Origin: Bosea sp. BIWAKO-01
Lineage (GTDB): Bacteria; Pseudomonadota; Alphaproteobacteria; Rhizobiales; Beijerinckiaceae
Length of the DNA stretch: 64,000 nt
Direction of reading: 5' to 3'
Assembly: GCF_001748145.1 (NCBI RefSeq)
Contig: NZ_BCQA01000001.1
Coordinates: forward strand, 5,172,501-5,236,500
The notes under the pieces were generated by a model, which was not told where the DNA came from, ran no database searches, and saw only the letters and a list, made by a program, of their open reading frames with translations. Shown here one piece after another: positions 13,065 through 63,511 of the stretch. The number at the start of each line of letters is the position of its first letter. The first letter of the stretch is position 1. Made by a program: the position numbers and the translations under genes.

Positions 13065-14033
13065 ATGACCATCGGCAGAATTTTCGCAGCGGGCCTGCTT
13101 GCCGCGATGGCGATGACGCCAGAACTGGCGACGGCCCAGACGCCGCCGCAGGAACTCAAGATCATTGCTCCCGCGGGGCCAGGCGGTGGTTGGGACGGCG
13201 CCGCCCGCTCGATCCAGCAGGTGTTGACCGAGACGAAGGCCGTTCGCGGCGTACAGGTCACGAATGTCACCGGTGCCGGCGGCACGATCGGGCTTGCCCA
13301 GTTCATCAACGGAGCCAAGGGTGATTCGAGCCAGCTCCTGGTCAACGGGATCACCATGGTCGGGGCGATCCTGACCAACAAGTCGCCGGTCACGCTGGAC
13401 CAGGTGACGCCGCTTGCGCGTCTCACCGGCGATCCGCTGGTCATCGTCGTTCCCGAGACGTCGCCGCACAAGACGATGAAGGACTTCCTCGCCGCGATCA
13501 CGGCCGACGTCGCTCGGGTGACCTGGGCCGGCGGATCGGCGGGAGGCGCCGATCATATTCTTGCAGCGCTCGTGACGAAGGTGGCCGGCGCTGATGCCGG
13601 CAAGGTGAACTATGTCGCATTCTCCGGTGGCGGGGAGGCGCTCGCGGCCATGCTCGGAGGCCGTGTCACGGCCGGCGTTTCCGGCTATGGCGAATTCGAG
13701 GGCCAGATCAAGGCCGGCAAGCTGCGCGCGCTGGCCATTTCCTCGGGCAAGCGGCTGGATAGCGTCGATGTACCGACGCTGAAGGAGCTCGGCTACGATG
13801 TCGAGGTGGTCAACTGGCGGGCGGTCATGGCCGCGCCGGGCATCAGCGCCGAACAGAAGGCTCAGTTGACCAAGCTCTTCGATACGATGGTTGCGAGCGG
13901 CGAGTGGAAAGCGCTGCTGAAGGCGCGCGGCTGGGACGATTACTATCTTGCCGGGGAGCCCTTCGCAGCCTTCCTCAGGGAAGAGCAGGTTCGGGTCGGC
14001 GACATCCTGCGCACGATCGGGCTGGTGAAATAG
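13065..14033 (+). CDS. Tricarboxylate-type (TctC/Bug family) periplasmic binding protein
   Basis: The product is 322 residues: a signal peptide (1-25, ending LATAQ) and a Bug/TctC fold with the ligand loop [22 protein letters not shown] ribosome site precedes the ATG at 13065. It follows the aconitase gene by 44 bases. No TctA or TctB membrane partner is nearby, so it is an orphan receptor that either docks with a transporter elsewhere or acts as a sensor. A carboxylate ligand is expected from the family. Confidence 0.87.
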
Positions 14034-14051
14034 GCACCTTGCCTGCGAGCC

Positions 14052-15008
14052 ATGTCATCACCTAGAGCCACAGTCGGGCGCGCTGGCGCCGGCAGGGCTG
14101 GGACGATGGCAGGCAGTGGGAGACGAGACCTGGCGACCCCGCTCGCTGCTCGGATTCTCGATCAGATCCGAGAGGGGCATCTGGGCACCGGGACACATTT
14201 GCGCTCACAGGATATCGCGACGCGTTTCGGCGTGTCGCGCTTTCCCGTCGGTCAGGCCTTGCAGCTGCTTGCCGAGAAGGGCGTCCTGAGCCACGAGCAC
14301 AATCGCGGCTATTTCGTCGCCGAGGGAACGCCTCCCTCCGGCGAAGCCCTTGGCCTTGCCGAACCCGACAGTGTGACGAAGGCCTATTTCCGCATCGCCG
14401 ACGACCATCTGTGCGGCCGGTTGTCCGAGCAGGTCACCGAGTCCGATCTCAGGGACAGCTACGAGCTGACCCGCGCCGAACTCAATGCTGTCCTGACGCG
14501 GATCAGCCAGGAGGGCTGGGCCGAGCGCCGCCCGGGCTATGGCTGGAGCTTCACGCCGGTTCTCACCACCCCGGAGAGCCTCGAGCAGACCTACCGTCTG
14601 CGGCTGGCGCTGGAGCCTGCAGCATTGCTCGAACCCGGCTATCATCTTGCGCCCGAGAGCATCGCGGCTTGCAGGGCTGCCGAGCGCAGGCTCCTCGACG
14701 GGGCGATCGAGACAGACAGCGCGGACGCACTCCACGAACGCGGTGTCCGCTTCCACGAGACGATCGTCGCCGGCTCCGGAAATCCGTTCTTCCTCGAGAC
14801 GATCCGGCGGATCAACCGCATCCGCCGGCTGCTCTCCTATCGTTCGATGCTCGACCGCAAACGCTATCGGAAGCAATGCGAGGAGCATCTCGCCATTCTC
14901 GACAGCCTGGCCGCGGGCCGCCAGGAGGAGGCGGCCGAGAGGCTGCGGCAGCATCTCGGCCATACCATCGAGAACCTATCCAGCATCCGGCCGCTCCTCG
15001 CCCCCTAG
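14052..15008 (+). CDS. GntR/FadR-type regulator with two winged-helix domains
   Basis: The product is 318 residues. Residues 25-92 are a GntR winged helix (IATRFGVSRFPVGQALQLL). Residues 107-170 look like a second, diverged winged helix (YELTRAELNAVLTRISQEGW, then RRPGYGWSF as the wing). Residues 178-310 are an all-helical FCD ligand domain with a His-containing metal/carboxylate site. It lies 18 bases after the receptor gene, in a three-gene unit, and likely controls it in response to a carboxylate. A downstream ATG at 14106 is an alternative start. Confidence 0.83.
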   Translation: MSSPRATVGRAGAGRAGTMAGSGRRDLATPLAARILDQIREGHLGTGTHLRSQDIATRFGVSRFPVGQALQLLAEKGVLSHEHNRGYFVAEGTPPSGEALGLAEPDSVTKAYFRIADDHLCGRLSEQVTESDLRDSYELTRAELNAVLTRISQEGWAERRPGYGWSFTPVLTTPESLEQTYRLRLALEPAALLEPGYHLAPESIAACRAAERRLLDGAIETDSADALHERGVRFHETIVAGSGNPFFLETIRRINRIRRLLSYRSMLDRKRYRKQCEEHLAILDSLAAGRQEEAAERLRQHLGHTIENLSSIRPLLAP

Positions 15009-15059
15009 CAGGCCCGCAGGCGCAGACGCGCAGCGTCCCGAAGGGGCGCGCAAGCAGAC

Positions 15060-16073
15060 TCAGCGCTCGACGACGACCTGTTCGAGCAGCGCCATGGCGG
15101 CAGCTCCATCGGCCGCGTTCGGTGCCATGGTCGGCTCGCCGCGCGCAGCACGGACGAAGTCGCCGAGAAGCGCGTGATAGCCCTTGTGGTCCTCGTTTGC
15201 CGCAGCTGTCAGATTTGGCTCCCAGACCAGGGTGTCTTCGCCGTCGATCAGGCTGGCCTCGGCCCGTGAGACCTTGAAGGGGGGCGCCCTGAAATAGCGA
15301 ACCTCATGAACATTGCGGACCTCGACGCGGGCGTGGTCGCCCATCACTTGCCACCATTCCATCGGCGTGCCGCGCGACTGATGCGTACCCATGACCAGGG
15401 TGCCGATGCCGCCATTGGCAAAGCGGAAATCGACATGGAGCAGCAGCTTGCCGGGTGCCAACTCGTGCCGCCTCGCGCTCACGCTCGTGACCTCGCCCAT
15501 AAGGTGCGGCACGAGATCGAAATAGTGCACGCAATGATGCAGGTAGAAGCCGGAATAATCGGGATCTCCCGCGAAATAGGTCGGCGCCGTCATGTACTCG
15601 CCGAGGAAGCTCGCGGTTGCGCCGAATTCCTTCGTGCCAATGACGTTGGCGGCAATGCGGTTGGCCGTCGAATAGCGCTTCATGAAGCCGAGCACGACCG
15701 GCACCTTGCGGCTCGCAGCCGCTTCCGCGAGTTCGGCCGCTTGTCGCGCCGTCGGCGCCGGCGGCTTCTCGATGAAGAGCGGCAAGCCGCGTGCGATCGC
15801 TGCCAATCCGATCTCGTGATGCAGGGCAGGACCGACCGCGAGGCCGACCGCGTCGAGATCGCCACGGGACAGCAGGCTGCGCCAATCGCGCAGGCGAGCG
15901 GCCTCGGGAACGCCGTAGCGCCGGCCGGTCGTATTCAACCGCGCCTCATCCGTGTCGCAGAGCGCGGTGATCTCGACATCATGCCGCGTCAGCTGCGGCA
16001 GCAGCATCTCGTTGGCATGGAGGCCGCAGCCGATCCAGCCGACCCGAAGCGCGCCTGTCCTTGAACCGGTCAT
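15060..16073 (-). CDS. Gfo/Idh/MocA-family NAD(P)-dependent oxidoreductase
   Basis: The product is 337 residues. The Rossmann fold begins with VGWIGCGLHANEML, and the family motif EKP appears as FIEKPPAPT (about 96), giving the catalytic lysine. The C-terminal half is the alpha/beta substrate domain. It is the last gene of the leftward sugar operon, and its ATG overlaps the stop of the epimerase gene (ATGA). It probably oxidises a sugar or cyclitol hydroxyl; the exact substrate is unknown. Confidence 0.87.
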   Translation of the reverse strand: MTGSRTGALRVGWIGCGLHANEMLLPQLTRHDVEITALCDTDEARLNTTGRRYGVPEAARLRDWRSLLSRGDLDAVGLAVGPALHHEIGLAAIARGLPLFIEKPPAPTARQAAELAEAAASRKVPVVLGFMKRYSTANRIAANVIGTKEFGATASFLGEYMTAPTYFAGDPDYSGFYLHHCVHYFDLVPHLMGEVTSVSARRHELAPGKLLLHVDFRFANGGIGTLVMGTHQSRGTPMEWWQVMGDHARVEVRNVHEVRYFRAPPFKVSRAEASLIDGEDTLVWEPNLTAAANEDHKGYHALLGDFVRAARGEPTMAPNAADGAAAMALLEQVVVER

Positions 16074-58009: not shown

Positions 58010-59137
58010 CTACTCCCAGCTCAGGGCGCCGCCGTTCTGGTATTCGATGACGCGGGTCTCGAAGAAATTCTTCTCCTTCTTCAGGTCCATCGCCTCGCTC
58101 ATCCAGGGGAACGGGTTTTCCGTTTCCGCGAAGACCGGCGCGAGGCCGAGCTGCGCGCAACGGCGGTTGGCAATGAAATGCATGTACTGCTCGCAGAGCG
58201 CAGCATTCAGGCCGAGGAAACCGCGCGGCATGGTGTCCCGGCCATAGGCGGCCTCGAGTTCGGCAGCGTCGCGGATCATGCCGCGCAGTTCATCCTGGAA
58301 GGCCTTGGTCCAGAGATGCGGGTTCTCGATCTTGATCTGGTTGATCACGTCGATGCCGAAATTCAGATGAATGCTCTCGTCGCGCAGGATGTACTGGTAC
58401 TGCTCGGCGATGCCGACCATCTTGTTGCGCCGGCCGAGCGACAGGATCTGGGCGAAGCCGGTGTAGAACCACATGCCCTCGAAGATCACGTAGAAGGCGA
58501 CGAGGTCGCGCAGGAAGGCCTGATCGGCCTCGGGCGTGCCGGTCTCGAAATCGGGATCGTCGAGATGCTGGGTATGCTTCAGGGCCCAGGCCGCCTTGTC
58601 GGTGATCGAGGGCACCTCGCGATACATGTTGAAGAGCTCGCCCTCGTCGAGGCCGAGGCTCTCGACGATGTACTGGAAGGTGTGGGTGTGCACCGCCTCC
58701 TCGAAAGCCTGGCGCAGCAGGTACTGCCGGCATTCCGGATTGGTGAGATGGCGGTAGATCGCCAGCACGATGTTGTTGGCGACGAGGCTTTCCGAGGCCG
58801 CGAAGAAGCCGAGATTGCGCTTGATCGCACGGCGCTCGTCGTCGGTCAGCCCGTCCTTCGACTTCCACAGAGCGATATCGGCCTGCATCGAGACCTCTGT
58901 CGGCATCCAGTGGTTGTTGCAGCCGGCGAGGTATTTCTCCCAGGCCCATTTGTACTTGAGCGGCAGGAGCTGGTTCACATCGGCGCGGCAGTTGATCATC
59001 CGCTTCTCGTCGACGCTGACGCGGCCGCCGGAGCGATCGATCTCGCCGAGGCCGGTGGCATCGGCATGGGTTCCGCCGGCCGCGGCCGGATTGAGATCGA
59101 GGGCGGCGGCAGGCTTGCTGTCTGACCAGTCGAGCAT
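58010..59137 (-). CDS. nrdB: Ribonucleotide reductase small subunit, class Ic type (no radical tyrosine)
   Basis: The product is 375 residues. Metal ligands read as E116, E147, H150, E220, E254 and H257. The residue four after H150, normally the radical tyrosine, is F154 (EEAVHTHTF). All spacings equal those of the Chlamydia trachomatis class Ic protein (E89, E120, H123, F127, E193, E227, H230) with an offset of 27. A manganese/iron cofactor is thus expected. It lies 125 bases downstream of nrdA. Start ATG 59137; another at the 59167 side is less likely. Confidence 0.93.
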
Positions 59138-59262
59138 GATGAATATCCAATCGGGTCTGAATGTCATGGCCGGGTCTGCCCCGGCCGTCCGTATCGTTCG
59201 CTATCGGGCAGGGTCGGGCATCCATGCGCGCCGCGAAGGCGAGCGTGGACGCCGCGGCTGCC

Positions 59263-62169
59263 TCACTGGCAGGCTTCGCAGGTCGGATCGTCGATCGAGC
59301 AGGCGTTCGGCACGGCCATGCCATTGTCGAGCGGGATGTCGACGAGGATCGGCTTGGCCGCGACGGGGACCGTCGCCGACACCGCATTGAGCTTGCCGTC
59401 AGTGCCCTTCAGCGTCGACTTCTCGACATGGGTCGCCGAGAGCGCGCGCAGGTAATAGGTCGTCTTCAGACCGAGCCGCCAGGCGAGGCGATAGGCCTCG
59501 TCGAGCTTCCTGCCGGAAGGCTGCGCCATGTAGAGATTGAGCGACTGGCCCTGGTCGATCCATTTCTGACGGCGTGCGGCGGCGCGGATCAGCCAGCTCG
59601 TCTCGATCTCGAAGGAGGTGGCGTAGAGCGCCTTGAGATCGTCGGGGACGCGGTCGATCTGACTGACCTTTCCGTCATAGTATTTCAGGTCCGAGACCAT
59701 GACCTCGTCCCAAAGATCGCGCGCCTTGAGATCGCGGACGAGGTCGGCATTCACGACCGTGAAGTCGCCCGACATGTTCGCCTTGACGTAGAGCTGGCTG
59801 TAGGACGGCTCGATCGACTGCGAGACACCGACGATGTTGGAGATCGTTGCAGTCGGGGCAATCGCCATGCAGTTCGAGTTGCGCATGCCGGTGGTCTTCA
59901 CCCGCTCGCGCAGGCTGTCCCAGTCCAAAGTCGTCGAACGATCGAGCTCGACATCGCCGTCGCGGGCGTCGGAGAGAATGTCGAGCGAGTCGATCGGCAG
60001 GATACCCTTCGACCAGAGCGAGCCCTCGAAGCTCGGATAGCGACCGCGCTCGGCGGCAAGATCGACCGAGGCCGAGATCGCAAACCAGCTGACCGCCTCC
60101 ATCGAGCTATCGGCGAAGGCGACGGCGCCCTCGGACGCGGCGGGCAGGCGCAGGATCTGCAGCGCATCCTGGAAGCCCATGATGCCGAGGCCGACCGGGC
60201 GATGACGCAGGTTCGAGCGGCGCGCCTCGGGGATCGTGTAGAAATTGATGTCGATGACATTGTCGAGCATTCGCATCGCGGTCGCGACCGTCTTGCCGAG
60301 CCTGGCCCGGTCGAGCCCGTCGGCCGTCACATGGGCTGCCAGGTTGATCGAGCCCAGATTGCAGACGGCGACCTCGTCGGCCGAGGTGTTCAGCGTGATC
60401 TCGGTGCACAGGTTCGAGGAATGCACGACGCCGGCATGCTGCTGCGGCGAGCGCAGGTTGCAGGCATCCTTGAAGGTGATCCAGGGATGGCCGGTTTCGA
60501 ACAGCATGGTCAGCATCTTGCGCCAAAGATCGAGCGCGTTCAGGCGCTTGAACACCTTGATCTCGCCGCGCTCTGCCTTGGCTTCGTAGGCCTCATAGGC
60601 CGCCTTGAACGGCTTACCGTAGAGATCGTGGAGGTCGGGCGTCTCGTCGGGCGAGAACAGCGTCCACTGACCTCCGGCCGCGACCCGCTGCATGAACAGG
60701 TCGGGGATCCAGTTCGCGGTGTTCATGTCATGGGTACGGCGTCGGTCGTCGCCGGTGTTCTTGCGCAGGTCGAGGAACTCCTCGATGTCGACATGCCAGG
60801 TTTCGAGATAGGCGCAGACGGCGCCCTTGCGCTTGCCACCCTGGTTGACGGCGATCGCGGTGTCGTTGGCGACCTTGAGGAAGGGAACGATGCCCTGGCT
60901 CTCGCCATTGGTGCCCTTGATATGGGCGCCAAGGCCACGCACCGGCGTCCAGTCATTGCCGAGCCCACCGGAATATTTGGCCAGCAGGGCGTTGTCCTTC
61001 ACCGCCTTGAAGATGCCGTCGAGATCGTCCGGCACCGTGGTCAGGAAGCAGGAGGAGAGCTGCGGCCTGAGGGTTCCTGCGTTGAACAGGGTCGGCGTCG
61101 AGGCCATGAAGTCGAAGGAGGAGAGCAGGTCGTAGAAGGCGATCGCCCGGGCCTCGCGGTCGATCTCGCGGATCGCCAGACCCATCGCGACACGCATGAA
61201 GAAGGCCTGCGGCAGCTCGAAGCGATTGCCTCGGACATGCAGGAAATAGCGGTCATAGAGCGTCTGGAAGCCGAGATAGTCGAACTGGAGGTCGCGTTCC
61301 GGTTTGAGCGCCGCGGCAAGCCGGGCAAGATCGAAGCGTCCAAGCTCGGGATCGAGCAGCTCGTTGGCGATGCCGGTCTTCACATAGGCGTGGAGATAGT
61401 CGCCATAACGTCCTGACATTTCTGACTGTGTCGCCTGTTCCGGCCGGCCGGAGACGAAGCTCAGCGCCTCGCGGCGGAGCTTATCGAGCAGCAGGCGTGC
61501 CGAGACCTTGGAATAGTTCGGCTCGGTCTCGACGAGGGTGCGCGCCGCCAGGATCGGCGCCTGCGCCAGCTCATACTGGCTGATGCCGTCATAGAGGTTA
61601 CGCTGCGCTTCGCTCAGCACGGCTTCGGCCGAGACGCCGTCGAGCCCGGCGCAGGCTTCGCGAATGACCGTGGCGAGGCGCGCCGCGTCGAGCGGCACGA
61701 GCGCGCCGTCGGCTGCCTCCATGCGCAGCACCGGTGCGGTGGCGACCGCAGGCTTCGCTTCCGCCTTGGCGCGGGCCCGCTCCTGGGCTCGCTCCTCGCG
61801 GTAGAGCACATAGGCGCGGGCGACCTTGTGGTGTTCGCTGCGCATCAACGCGAGTTCGACCTGATCCTGCACATCCTCGATATGGAAGGTGCGGCCGGCA
61901 TCGGCGCGCCGCGTCAGCCCGGCGACGATCTGCTGGGTCAGCTCCGCGACGATGTCGTGGATCCGGCGCGAGGCAGCGGCGCTGCTGCCCTCGACCGCCA
62001 GAAACGCCTTGGTCAGCGCGACGCTGATCTTGGAGGCATCGAAGGGGGTGACACTGCCATTGCGGCGGATCACCTGGTAGCCCGGTTCCGCGGTCGATCG
62101 CGCATCGCTGCCTTGCGACGCGATCGGGCTGAACGTCTCAGGGCGGATGGTATCGGTCGCGAGGGACAT
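59263..62169 (-). CDS. nrdA: Ribonucleoside-diphosphate reductase large subunit with two ATP-cones
   Basis: The product is 968 residues. Two ATP-cone domains (about 32-122 and 143-235) precede the catalytic barrel. Active-site residues are present: the cysteine in LSSCFLTT, the radical set in NLCTEI, the partner cysteine in VAVCNLGS, the paired tyrosines TTYYLRAL, and the C-terminal redox pair CEAC. It reduces ribonucleotides to deoxyribonucleotides with NrdB. Two cones imply strong allosteric control by dATP. Its leader carries a cobalamin riboswitch. Confidence 0.95.
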   Translation of the reverse strand: MSLATDTIRPETFSPIASQGSDARSTAEPGYQVIRRNGSVTPFDASKISVALTKAFLAVEGSSAAASRRIHDIVAELTQQIVAGLTRRADAGRTFHIEDVQDQVELALMRSEHHKVARAYVLYREERAQERARAKAEAKPAVATAPVLRMEAADGALVPLDAARLATVIREACAGLDGVSAEAVLSEAQRNLYDGISQYELAQAPILAARTLVETEPNYSKVSARLLLDKLRREALSFVSGRPEQATQSEMSGRYGDYLHAYVKTGIANELLDPELGRFDLARLAAALKPERDLQFDYLGFQTLYDRYFLHVRGNRFELPQAFFMRVAMGLAIREIDREARAIAFYDLLSSFDFMASTPTLFNAGTLRPQLSSCFLTTVPDDLDGIFKAVKDNALLAKYSGGLGNDWTPVRGLGAHIKGTNGESQGIVPFLKVANDTAIAVNQGGKRKGAVCAYLETWHVDIEEFLDLRKNTGDDRRRTHDMNTANWIPDLFMQRVAAGGQWTLFSPDETPDLHDLYGKPFKAAYEAYEAKAERGEIKVFKRLNALDLWRKMLTMLFETGHPWITFKDACNLRSPQQHAGVVHSSNLCTEITLNTSADEVAVCNLGSINLAAHVTADGLDRARLGKTVATAMRMLDNVIDINFYTIPEARRSNLRHRPVGLGIMGFQDALQILRLPAASEGAVAFADSSMEAVSWFAISASVDLAAERGRYPSFEGSLWSKGILPIDSLDILSDARDGDVELDRSTTLDWDSLRERVKTTGMRNSNCMAIAPTATISNIVGVSQSIEPSYSQLYVKANMSGDFTVVNADLVRDLKARDLWDEVMVSDLKYYDGKVSQIDRVPDDLKALYATSFEIETSWLIRAAARRQKWIDQGQSLNLYMAQPSGRKLDEAYRLAWRLGLKTTYYLRALSATHVEKSTLKGTDGKLNAVSATVPVAAKPILVDIPLDNGMAVPNACSIDDPTCEACQ

Positions 62170-62270
62170 CGGCTTTCAAACCCCAATCTGTAGGGGCAAG
62201 GGCCAGGCGGAGTCGCAACGGAGAATGTCGCGGCGACGAGCGCCCGCAGACATGACCAAGCGATCCACCG

Positions 62271-62474
62271 GGACACCCCGCCCGAGGACGATTCTGCTGT
62301 CGCGGCAGGTCTCCTGGCTCGCGGGTCATCGCTCTTGTCCCGTCTTCCCAAGGCCTGGCGGCCTCAGTGACTGGTATTCTGGACAAGTACTCGCCGCTGA
62401 CAGTTGCGGGGGCAGCGCCGGTTTCGCACCGGCTTCCCTCTTAGCTCTCGATCTTGCGACTCGAGAGACCGTGA
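62271..62474 (-). promoter_or_regulatory. Cobalamin riboswitch in the nrdAB leader
   Basis: On the minus strand: AAGAGGGAAGCCGGTG, the core GCTGCCCCCGCAACTGTCAG, and the B12 box GCCAGGAGACCTGCC (62304-62318). The GC-rich element at 62271-62285 is the same as behind the other riboswitch. The nrdA start is about 100 bases further on. It is expected to shut off nrdAB when cobalamin is available, leaving reduction to a B12-dependent class II enzyme encoded elsewhere. Confidence 0.94.
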
Positions 62475-62511
62475 CCACCATATGTAGTGGCCATCGGGAC
62501 GATTCTGTCAA
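62475..62511 (-). promoter_or_regulatory. nrdA: nrdA promoter with an overlapping NrdR-box-like palindrome
   Basis: TTGACA (62506-62511) and TACATA (62481-62486) form a minus-strand promoter with a long 19-base spacer. The 16-bp sequence at 62475-62490 (CCAC, CATATGTA, GTGG) has the length and symmetry of an NrdR box and covers the -10 element. A second box at the usual spacing was not clear. Confidence 0.55.
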
Positions 62512-62749
62512 CAGCTTGCCGCAGCCTATGCGTTAGCCCTTAAAGAACGGGAATGGTCGAGCCGGCCGCTTCTGCGTCCTGTCTCCGCCATCGCGCGATG
62601 AGCCCGGGATCACCACCATCGATGCAAGCTTCCGCCGAATTGCATGCGGCGATCGGCCCTGGGGGCGTCATGGCGCAGCTGCTCGCGCTGCCGTCCCACA
62701 TGCTATGGCAGCTGAACGATGGGCATCTGAGCCCGGACATGGAGGCCGA

Positions 62750-63511
62750 ATGCGCAAGATCCTGATCATCGGAATTGGTGCCGGCAATCCCGACTATGTC
62801 ACGGTCCAGGCGATCAACGCCCTCAACCAGGCCGACGTCTTCTTCATTCCCGACAAGGGGACAGACAAGGCGGAGCTCGGACGGCTGCGGAAAGACATCT
62901 GCGAGCGCTTCATCGAAGGCTCGGATTATCGCCTGGTTTCGGTTCCGATCCCCGAGCGTTCCGCCGCTGGAACGAATTACCGGGGAAGCGTCGACGAATG
63001 GCATGCGCGTATTGCCCATGACTACGAGGTCCTGTTCACGGACGAACTCGAGGACGGCGAATGCGGAGCCTTCCTCGTCTGGGGCGATCCGACGCTCTAT
63101 GACAGTACGCTGCGGATCATCGAGCATATTCGCGCCAGGGGCTTCGCTCTCGAATACGATGTGATCCCGGGCATCAGCAGCGTGCAGGCCCTTGCGGCGC
63201 AACACCGGGTCACCCTCAACCGGATTGGCGAGCCGGTGCTGATCACCACTGGACGCAAACTCGCGGAAGGCTTTCCCAATGACCTCGATAGTGTGGTCGT
63301 CATGCTCGACGGGGACCAGGCCTTCAGGCGCGTCGCCGGTGAAGATCTCGATATCTATTGGGGCGCCTATCTCGGCACCGAGGACGAAATCCTGATCGCC
63401 GGAAAGCTCTCGGAGGTGATGGGCGATATCGAGCGCAGCCGGCGCGAAGCGCGAGAGGAAAAGGGCTGGATCATGGATACCTATCTGCTTCGGAGACGCG
63501 ACGAGGACTGA
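62750..63511 (+). CDS. cobF: Precorrin-6A synthase (deacetylating) CobF
   Basis: The product is 253 residues, a tetrapyrrole methylase-fold enzyme (ILIIGIGAGNPDYVTVQAIN; VWGDPTLYDS; YDVIPGISSVQALAA). CobF methylates C-1 of precorrin-5 and releases the two-carbon unit as acetate, a step of the aerobic B12 pathway. ATG 62750 has GGAGG 4 bases ahead. It is divergent from nrdA; no other cob gene lies in the window. Confidence 0.92.
   Translation: MRKILIIGIGAGNPDYVTVQAINALNQADVFFIPDKGTDKAELGRLRKDICERFIEGSDYRLVSVPIPERSAAGTNYRGSVDEWHARIAHDYEVLFTDELEDGECGAFLVWGDPTLYDSTLRIIEHIRARGFALEYDVIPGISSVQALAAQHRVTLNRIGEPVLITTGRKLAEGFPNDLDSVVVMLDGDQAFRRVAGEDLDIYWGAYLGTEDEILIAGKLSEVMGDIERSRREAREEKGWIMDTYLLRRRDED

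Follow-up and report, generated by a model that had tools for sequence, protein, structure and literature searches.

The classic B12 riboswitch on ribonucleotide reductase genes is that of Streptomyces coelicolor nrdABS, which encodes a class Ia enzyme and has nrdJ as its partner. The class Ic reductase of Chlamydia trachomatis shares with the locus described here, from Bosea sp. BIWAKO-01, a phenylalanine in place of tyrosine in NrdB, and we know of neither a riboswitch nor an NrdJ partner in Chlamydia. The metE riboswitch follows the same isozyme logic as nrdAB but acts on methionine synthase, and to our knowledge NrdR has no part in it. For P. megaterium metE/metH, excerpts of PMC9600662 describe repression of the B12-independent isozyme by B12 via a cobalamin riboswitch. 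NrdR boxes on Streptomyces nrdAB are described in excerpts of PMC9110341. S. coelicolor nrdABS resembles our locus in that its class I genes carry NrdR boxes as well as a B12 riboswitch, and differs in enzyme class (Ia) and phylum (Actinomycetota). The optimum for NrdR boxes is given as two 16-bp boxes separated by a spacer of 15–17 bp (about three helical turns), with conserved C/G pairs 9 bp apart (excerpts of PMC12051234 and PMC9110341).

A similar arrangement exists in Cutibacterium (Propionibacterium) acnes, where, according to excerpts of PMC3848588, a single nrd-box lies over the nrdAB promoter and the 5′ UTR behind it has an annotated cobalamin riboswitch; in the same species nrdRJ has no riboswitch and class III nrdDG has one. 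Unlike the organism studied here, P. acnes is an actinobacterium, its nrd-box is single and an early end of transcription is suggested (same excerpts). Given this precedent, the 'double control' of nrdAB proposed in an earlier, sequence-only reading of our locus is not new as such. That reading also knew of no description of riboswitch control of a class Ic, Mn/Fe enzyme, and we found neither a class Ic nor an alphaproteobacterial case of a B12 riboswitch in the open-licence PMC literature; mention in subscription papers is possible. A class Ic enzyme with a B12 riboswitch is absent from excerpts of PMC3848588, PMC9600662, PMC2667541, PMC8123684, PMC4465626, PMC2864759, PMC4428469, PMC3019208 and PMC5343134, and a word search of PMC3766115 returned no 'nrd'. 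Our locus departs from the known cases in its enzyme class (Ic), in its alphaproteobacterial host and in an nrdAB unit whose tree suggests horizontal transfer.

The stretch of DNA analysed (the window) comprises 64,000 nucleotides, C1:5172501-5236500 of a 7.33-Mb genome. The features around nrdAB are:

62750..63511, plus strand: cobF, precorrin-6A synthase (TIGR02434, 376.2 bits, cut-off 195.8), divergent from nrdA
62511-62506, minus strand: TTGACA, predicted −35
62487-62482, minus strand: CTACAT, predicted −10, with a spacer of 18 to the −35
62287..62488, minus strand: cobalamin riboswitch aptamer (RF00174), covariance model score 141.5 bits, full length
62413-62408, minus strand: L5, GCCCCC, inside the aptamer
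62319-62304, minus strand: B12 box, inside the RF00174 aptamer
62268..62287, minus strand: P13/L13 hairpin of the expression platform, from sequence, with predicted pairing
62279-62274, minus strand: L13 loop, GGGGTG, complementary both to L5 and to the start-site hairpin's 5′ arm
62170..62205, minus strand: start-site hairpin next to the nrdA start codon, from a pattern search
62184-62181, minus strand: GGGG, presumed Shine-Dalgarno, covered by the start-site hairpin
59263..62169, minus strand: nrdA, encoding the large subunit (968 aa) of a class I ribonucleotide reductase, with two ATP-cone stretches
58010..59167, minus strand: nrdB, class Ic R2, downstream of nrdA
57878-57669, minus strand: second full cobalamin riboswitch (124.9 bits), preceding an importer operon of the BtuF/BtuC-FecD type
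57566-56364, minus strand: substrate-binding protein, B12/siderophore importer type, behind the second riboswitch
56367-55330, minus strand: permease, B12/siderophore importer type, behind the second riboswitch

NrdA matches PRK07207 with 1708.8 bits (cut-off 965), and NrdB matches PDB 6y2n (693 bits) and the R2 protein of the class Ic enzyme of C. trachomatis (4d8f, 458.6 bits; also 1syy). In the alignment, Phe164 of NrdB (F164) replaces the radical Tyr of R2, which is the mark of class Ic and agrees with the class assigned in the sequence-only reading; Glu126 takes the place of C. trachomatis Glu89 in chlamydial numbering. A Mn/Fe cofactor is presumed from family membership. Across 123 loci besides the window the radical position is Phe in 53 and Tyr in 63, with no NrdB hit in 7, and it is Phe in all 49 of the 49 distinct alphaproteobacterial loci of the nrdA lineage, window included. 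The importer genes match EitA, F420-0, BtuC and FecD models, every score being below its cut-off.

A covariance scan of the leader matched RF00174 over model positions 1-189 of 189 (gathering score 31.5, E 1.1e-35), a score that rules out a chance match and confirms the complete B12 riboswitch that had been read between nrdA and its putative promoter. The complementarity required for an L5–L13 kissing loop (GCCCCC and GGGGTG) is present by sequence. A strict sigma-70 scan called no promoter at the nrdA leader; it requires A as the second base of the −10, and CTACAT has T there. CTACAT resembles what we take to be the alphaproteobacterial CTATAT form of the −10, and TTGACA/CTACAT is our candidate nrdA promoter. 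The sequence-only reading had named nrdJ and nrdR, besides the riboswitch model, as things to look for, and both are there: the genome has a single class II enzyme, NrdJ (C1:4841258-4844995; PRK07562, 2313 bits), and one NrdR (TIGR00244, 168.1 bits, cut-off 124.65), and gave no match to class III NrdD. Five cobalamin riboswitches (Rfam RF00174) were found in the genome, none of them matching at the nrdJ or nrdR locus. One (C1:5248952-5249176), some 14 kb away from that of nrdA, stands before the gene for the B12-independent methionine synthase, metE (frame 13188-15635 on the plus strand of locus L094).

Overall, Rfam places a riboswitch upstream of class Ic nrdA in 46 of the 49 distinct loci examined from Alphaproteobacteria. 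Within the order, 297 genomes were sampled and 40 had NrdA at E 1e-100 or better; 36 of these carry a class Ic orthologue (37 loci, own included), 34 of the 37 having a riboswitch immediately before nrdA (Rfam), and the remaining 4 genomes (genus g52) have an NrdA of 38% identity and a Tyr-type NrdB. The riboswitch is also present at 3/3 nrdA loci from other alphaproteobacterial orders (Rfam), these being the 3 besides our own that a strict NrdB search returned among 387 genomes, and at 10/10 named alphaproteobacterial loci among the NrdA relatives, one of which (L012) duplicates L096 and is counted once among the distinct loci. Among 70 loci of other relatives, only Azospira oryzae (L053, Tyr-type NrdB) has a riboswitch upstream of nrdA (pattern and Rfam). 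Five others (L020, L021, L025, L026 and L066) have none there by Rfam, and the other 64 have none by the pattern alone, which is not fully sensitive, having missed a riboswitch downstream of nrdB in L025 that Rfam detected. The L13 sequence GGGGTG is exact in 46/47 leaders and the L5 motif GCCCCCGCAACTG in 42/47, with L098, L100, L114 and L115 one base off each and L011 three.

The closest NrdA relative of the window is a Beijerinckiaceae metagenome-assembled genome (MAG) at 93% identity, and the class Ic orthologue is missing from 13 of 13 other listed genomes of the window's family. In the NrdA tree (a quick tree in which 16 of 52 inner branches are open), families f15, f18, f32, f33 and f46 each appear in more than one place. 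This scatter, together with the absence of the gene from the listed near kin, suggests that nrdAB moved horizontally along with its leader, that is, with both sensor and operator.

Several other arrangements were seen in these loci. Cobalamin riboswitches stand head to head, one at nrdA and one divergent, 113–143 bp apart, in L098, L099, L102, L115, L116 and L129. The alphaproteobacterial genome G219 has two class Ic nrdA copies with a riboswitch at each, and its class III nrdD also lies behind cobalamin riboswitches (L195, 7201-7399; L196). The class Ic nrdAB of Amycolatopsis (L020, L025 and L026) branches inside the alphaproteobacterial group; none of the three has a riboswitch in the nrdA leader, and L025 has one downstream of nrdB.

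The riboswitch goes together with nrdJ, which is present in 34/36 genomes of the order, 3/3 of the class and 4/5 named alphaproteobacterial genomes tested (L015-L018 are left out of this count). Among nrdJ-positive alphaproteobacterial genomes, 40 of 41 have the riboswitch at nrdA. The sole exception, G059 (L130/L197), has nrdJ and a truncated nrdA without riboswitch, which lacks about 100 first residues and adjoins foreign sequence, as either a rearrangement or an assembly chimera would produce. Three alphaproteobacterial genomes are without nrdJ: G258 and G282, of one genus, and G684. The first two (98–99% complete) have no riboswitch at nrdA by Rfam and no cobF above its cut-off; they carry other cobalamin riboswitches (2 and 1), and their NrdA nests inside the riboswitch-bearing group as sister to Bradyrhizobium/Afipia (97* support). 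G684 (L011), a single assembly of untold completeness in which neither nrdJ nor nrdD was found, has cobF and keeps a riboswitch despite the absence of nrdJ (3681-3881 of L011, 102.7 bits). Its L5 reads GTGCCC (vs GCCCCC) and its L13 GGAGTG, GCAACTG has become GCACCTG, and it is alone among the 47 leaders in lacking GGGGTG. Its 6 departures at well-conserved columns are the highest count jointly with L053, but the nrdJ-positive L110, L111 and L115 have 5 (some perhaps alignment shifts), and L110 and L111 score lower in bits (98.4 and 98.6). Because neither departure count nor bit score is distinctive, the argument from G684 rests on L5 and L13.

The nrdJ-less cases, two events at most and not proof, hint that the riboswitch tracks nrdJ. 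As we read them, B12 repression of the only reductase found would be harmful where NrdJ is missing, and the switch would then be lost or broken. Outside the Alphaproteobacteria the picture is mixed: the rule holds in Azospira, which has both nrdJ and the riboswitch, and in Larsenimonas, whose class Ic genes come with neither, and is broken by Amycolatopsis (3 genomes), where nrdJ accompanies class Ic nrdA yet nothing upstream of nrdA matches a riboswitch. The riboswitch might instead be a passenger of a B12 gene neighbourhood with no functional tie to nrdJ, as the flanking of the operon by cobF (62750-63511) and the second riboswitch (57878-57669), the nearby metE and the Amycolatopsis case would allow. 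We consider this very improbable, since the riboswitch keeps its place before nrdA in 46/49 alphaproteobacterial loci though the gene tree scatters across families, and since the nrdJ-less genomes lack the riboswitch or have both L5 and L13 changed.

The promoter region holds three sites resembling NrdR boxes:

62506..62521, minus strand: NrdR-like box 2 (CGGCAAGCTGTTGACA), 5/6 core bases, 7/16 of the consensus, overlapping the −35
62475..62490, minus strand: NrdR-like box 1 (CCACTACATATGGTGG), 6/6 core bases, covering the predicted −10
62444..62459, minus strand: possible third NrdR-like box (TCGCAAGATCGAGAGC), 5/6 core bases, in the P2-coding DNA

The 16-bp NrdR-like palindrome that had been noticed over the −10 holds up, with all six core bases, but as one of a pair rather than as a lone box. 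Box 2 stands 31 bp upstream of box 1 (spacer 15) and both have C4 and G13, as published for NrdR pairs, with box 2 weak outside the core. Across the 40 leaders scored (one duplicate among them), the box 1 core is complete (6/6) in 31, and 27 have a C4/G13 partner over the −35, 31 or 32 bp upstream (26 when only the 39 distinct leaders, window included, are counted); a randomly chosen position in the control promoters has such a C/G pair with a probability of 0.17. The partner table omits L097, L117, L119, L125 and L053, which have no TTGA in range. With a promoter spacer of 18 or 19 the partner is found in 26/29 distinct leaders, its G being given by TTGA and only its C being free, and with a spacer of 17 in 0/9.

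As controls we used 44 cobalamin-riboswitch leaders, 4 from the window's own genome and 40 drawn from roughly 87 places other than nrdA; 2 of the 44 later proved to be nrdD leaders. The best box-pair score at 31 or 32 bp averages 18.7 in 45 nrdA leaders (including one duplicate, L012 = L096, and one betaproteobacterium) vs 14.3 in controls (Mann–Whitney p 1.6e-12, overstated since related leaders are not independent). A score of 18 is reached at spacing 31 by 25/45 nrdA leaders and 0/44 controls, and at spacing 32 by 9 and 0. The nrdA leaders also outscore controls at all other spacings from 24 to 38, by about 1.7–3.1 (3.9 at 31), which makes the difference partly independent of spacing; the excess at off spacings (score 18 in 20 nrdA leaders at 29 and 17 at 33) perhaps reflects AT-rich boxes matching in a shifted register. 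Box pairs of varying strength also occur in 20 nrdJ leaders and the genome's own nrdJ, which has ATACAAGATGTCGTGT and GCACTAATCCTTGACG at 32 bp, a survey made with no control set.

The palindrome as a lone by-product of the −10 was rejected because the 44 other riboswitch promoters lack such pairs. A weaker form would have the riboswitch real and B12-responsive, the palindrome no more than an alphaproteobacterial −10 of the CTATAT kind, and NrdR without action here. Both boxes are indeed partly given by the promoter, the left half of box 1 being the −10 and the right half of box 2 the −35, and in the window box 2 has a low 16-base score (7/16). Yet 34/40 leaders retain T11 and G13 in the right half of box 1, which is presumably not transcribed, though box 1 was picked by score, and 26/29 distinct leaders with spacer 18 or 19 retain C4 of box 2, which lies outside the promoter. 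With the control promoters lacking such pairs and the nrdJ leaders, though uncontrolled, showing them, we regard this account as quite unlikely and favour a box pair bound by NrdR.

The three box-like sites are exactly 31 bp apart (62521, 62490 and 62459), the last lying inside P2. Several Bradyrhizobium/Afipia leaders match more fully at the P2 place, and nine leaders of this type have no −35 box and a −35/−10 spacer of 17, the P2 box at 31 or 32 bp being their only partner. At least 5/6 core bases are present at the P2 place in 18/42 nrdA leaders vs 3/44 controls (p 1.1e-4; L097 and L053 gave no placement and are left out). Of the three controls, L140 and L141 precede the class III nrdD of G219 and have a partner at 32 bp (4/6 core) over the predicted −10, whereas L142 lies ahead of genes for an ABC-type ATPase and a binding protein (identified by eye) and shows no partner at either 31 or 32 bp (2/6 and 1/6). 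Regrouped post hoc, the counts become 20/44 vs 1/42 (Fisher 1.7e-6), and a P2 box (5 or 6 core, 30–33 bp) occurs in 11/13 leaders without a −35 box vs 8/26 distinct leaders with one (p 0.002), both tests being inflated by shared descent, above all of the nine Bradyrhizobium/Afipia leaders. C4/G13 alone is uninformative at P2 (24/40 nrdA leaders and 29/44 controls, four offsets). We tentatively raise the possibility, doubtful as it is, that one stretch is read twice, as an NrdR operator in DNA and as the aptamer's P2 hairpin in RNA.

Downstream of the aptamer follow P13/L13 (loop GGGGUG), about 75 nt and then CCCC-loop-GGGG directly before the ATG. The arms of this start-site hairpin are GCCCC/GGGGU (inner) and UGGC/GCCG (outer), and its 5′ arm UUGCCCC resembles the UGCCCCC of L5, so that L13 could pair with either. 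Located by a hairpin-ATG pattern, it occurs in 41/45 nrdA leaders (40/44 without the duplicate; 0.56 expected in shuffles), all except L105, L110, L111 and L053. The pattern is also present in 14/44 control leaders (1.24 expected in shuffles), and the platform is therefore common to some other genes. Folding energies add little: the leader tail (166 nt) folds no better than shuffles (z −0.38), by itself the start-site hairpin stands out only modestly (z −1.41, equalled by 15/200 shuffles), and P13 by itself does not stand out from shuffles (z 0.17). Covariation is uninformative for the CCCC/GGGG stem because the stem is nearly invariant (by eye).

The start-site hairpin suggests translational repression of nrdA. 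The leader could instead work by transcription termination, Rho-dependent or intrinsic, as may happen in P. acnes, where much nrdAB transcription appears to stop before the gene (excerpts of PMC3848588). A scan of 62150-62760 found no intrinsic-terminator-like site, and an intrinsic terminator was rejected on this ground; the empty scan and the GGGG hairpin before the ATG in 41/45 leaders make termination unlikely, and hiding of the ribosome site remains our preferred reading.

We propose that nrdAB is a back-up to NrdJ whose leader is controlled by an NrdR box pair and a translational B12 riboswitch, and give this explanation as a whole a probability of about 0.72, held down by the several inferred steps that it joins and by the room that its rivals must have. 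Class Ic, B12-independent nrdAB would stand in for the B12-dependent class II NrdJ. With dNTPs plentiful, NrdR loaded with dATP/ATP would bind the box pair over the −35 and −10 and block the nrdA promoter. A transcript started there would begin with the cobalamin riboswitch, whose presumed ligand would turn nrdA off. Without B12, L13 (GGGGUG) would be free to pair with the CCCC arm before nrdA, leaving the GGGG ribosome site open; with cobalamin bound, L13 would kiss L5 (GCCCCC), and the CCCC arm would close on the GGGG before the ATG, leaving nrdA untranslated. As nrdJ has an NrdR box pair and no riboswitch, dNTP feedback would act on both enzymes and B12 would choose between them.

This model would extend the B12-riboswitch isozyme switch to a class Ic reductase in the Alphaproteobacteria, where the supply of a cobalt cofactor would decide the production of a presumed Mn/Fe enzyme. 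Genomes without nrdJ serve as natural controls, with the riboswitch missing or both sides of the kissing loop changed, and hint at the purpose of the switch. Sensor and operator appear to travel between families along with the nrdAB unit. Should the P2 operator prove real, a single sequence would serve a DNA-binding repressor and an RNA aptamer, and there would be a class of ribonucleotide-reductase riboswitches with the repressor's operator inside the aptamer.
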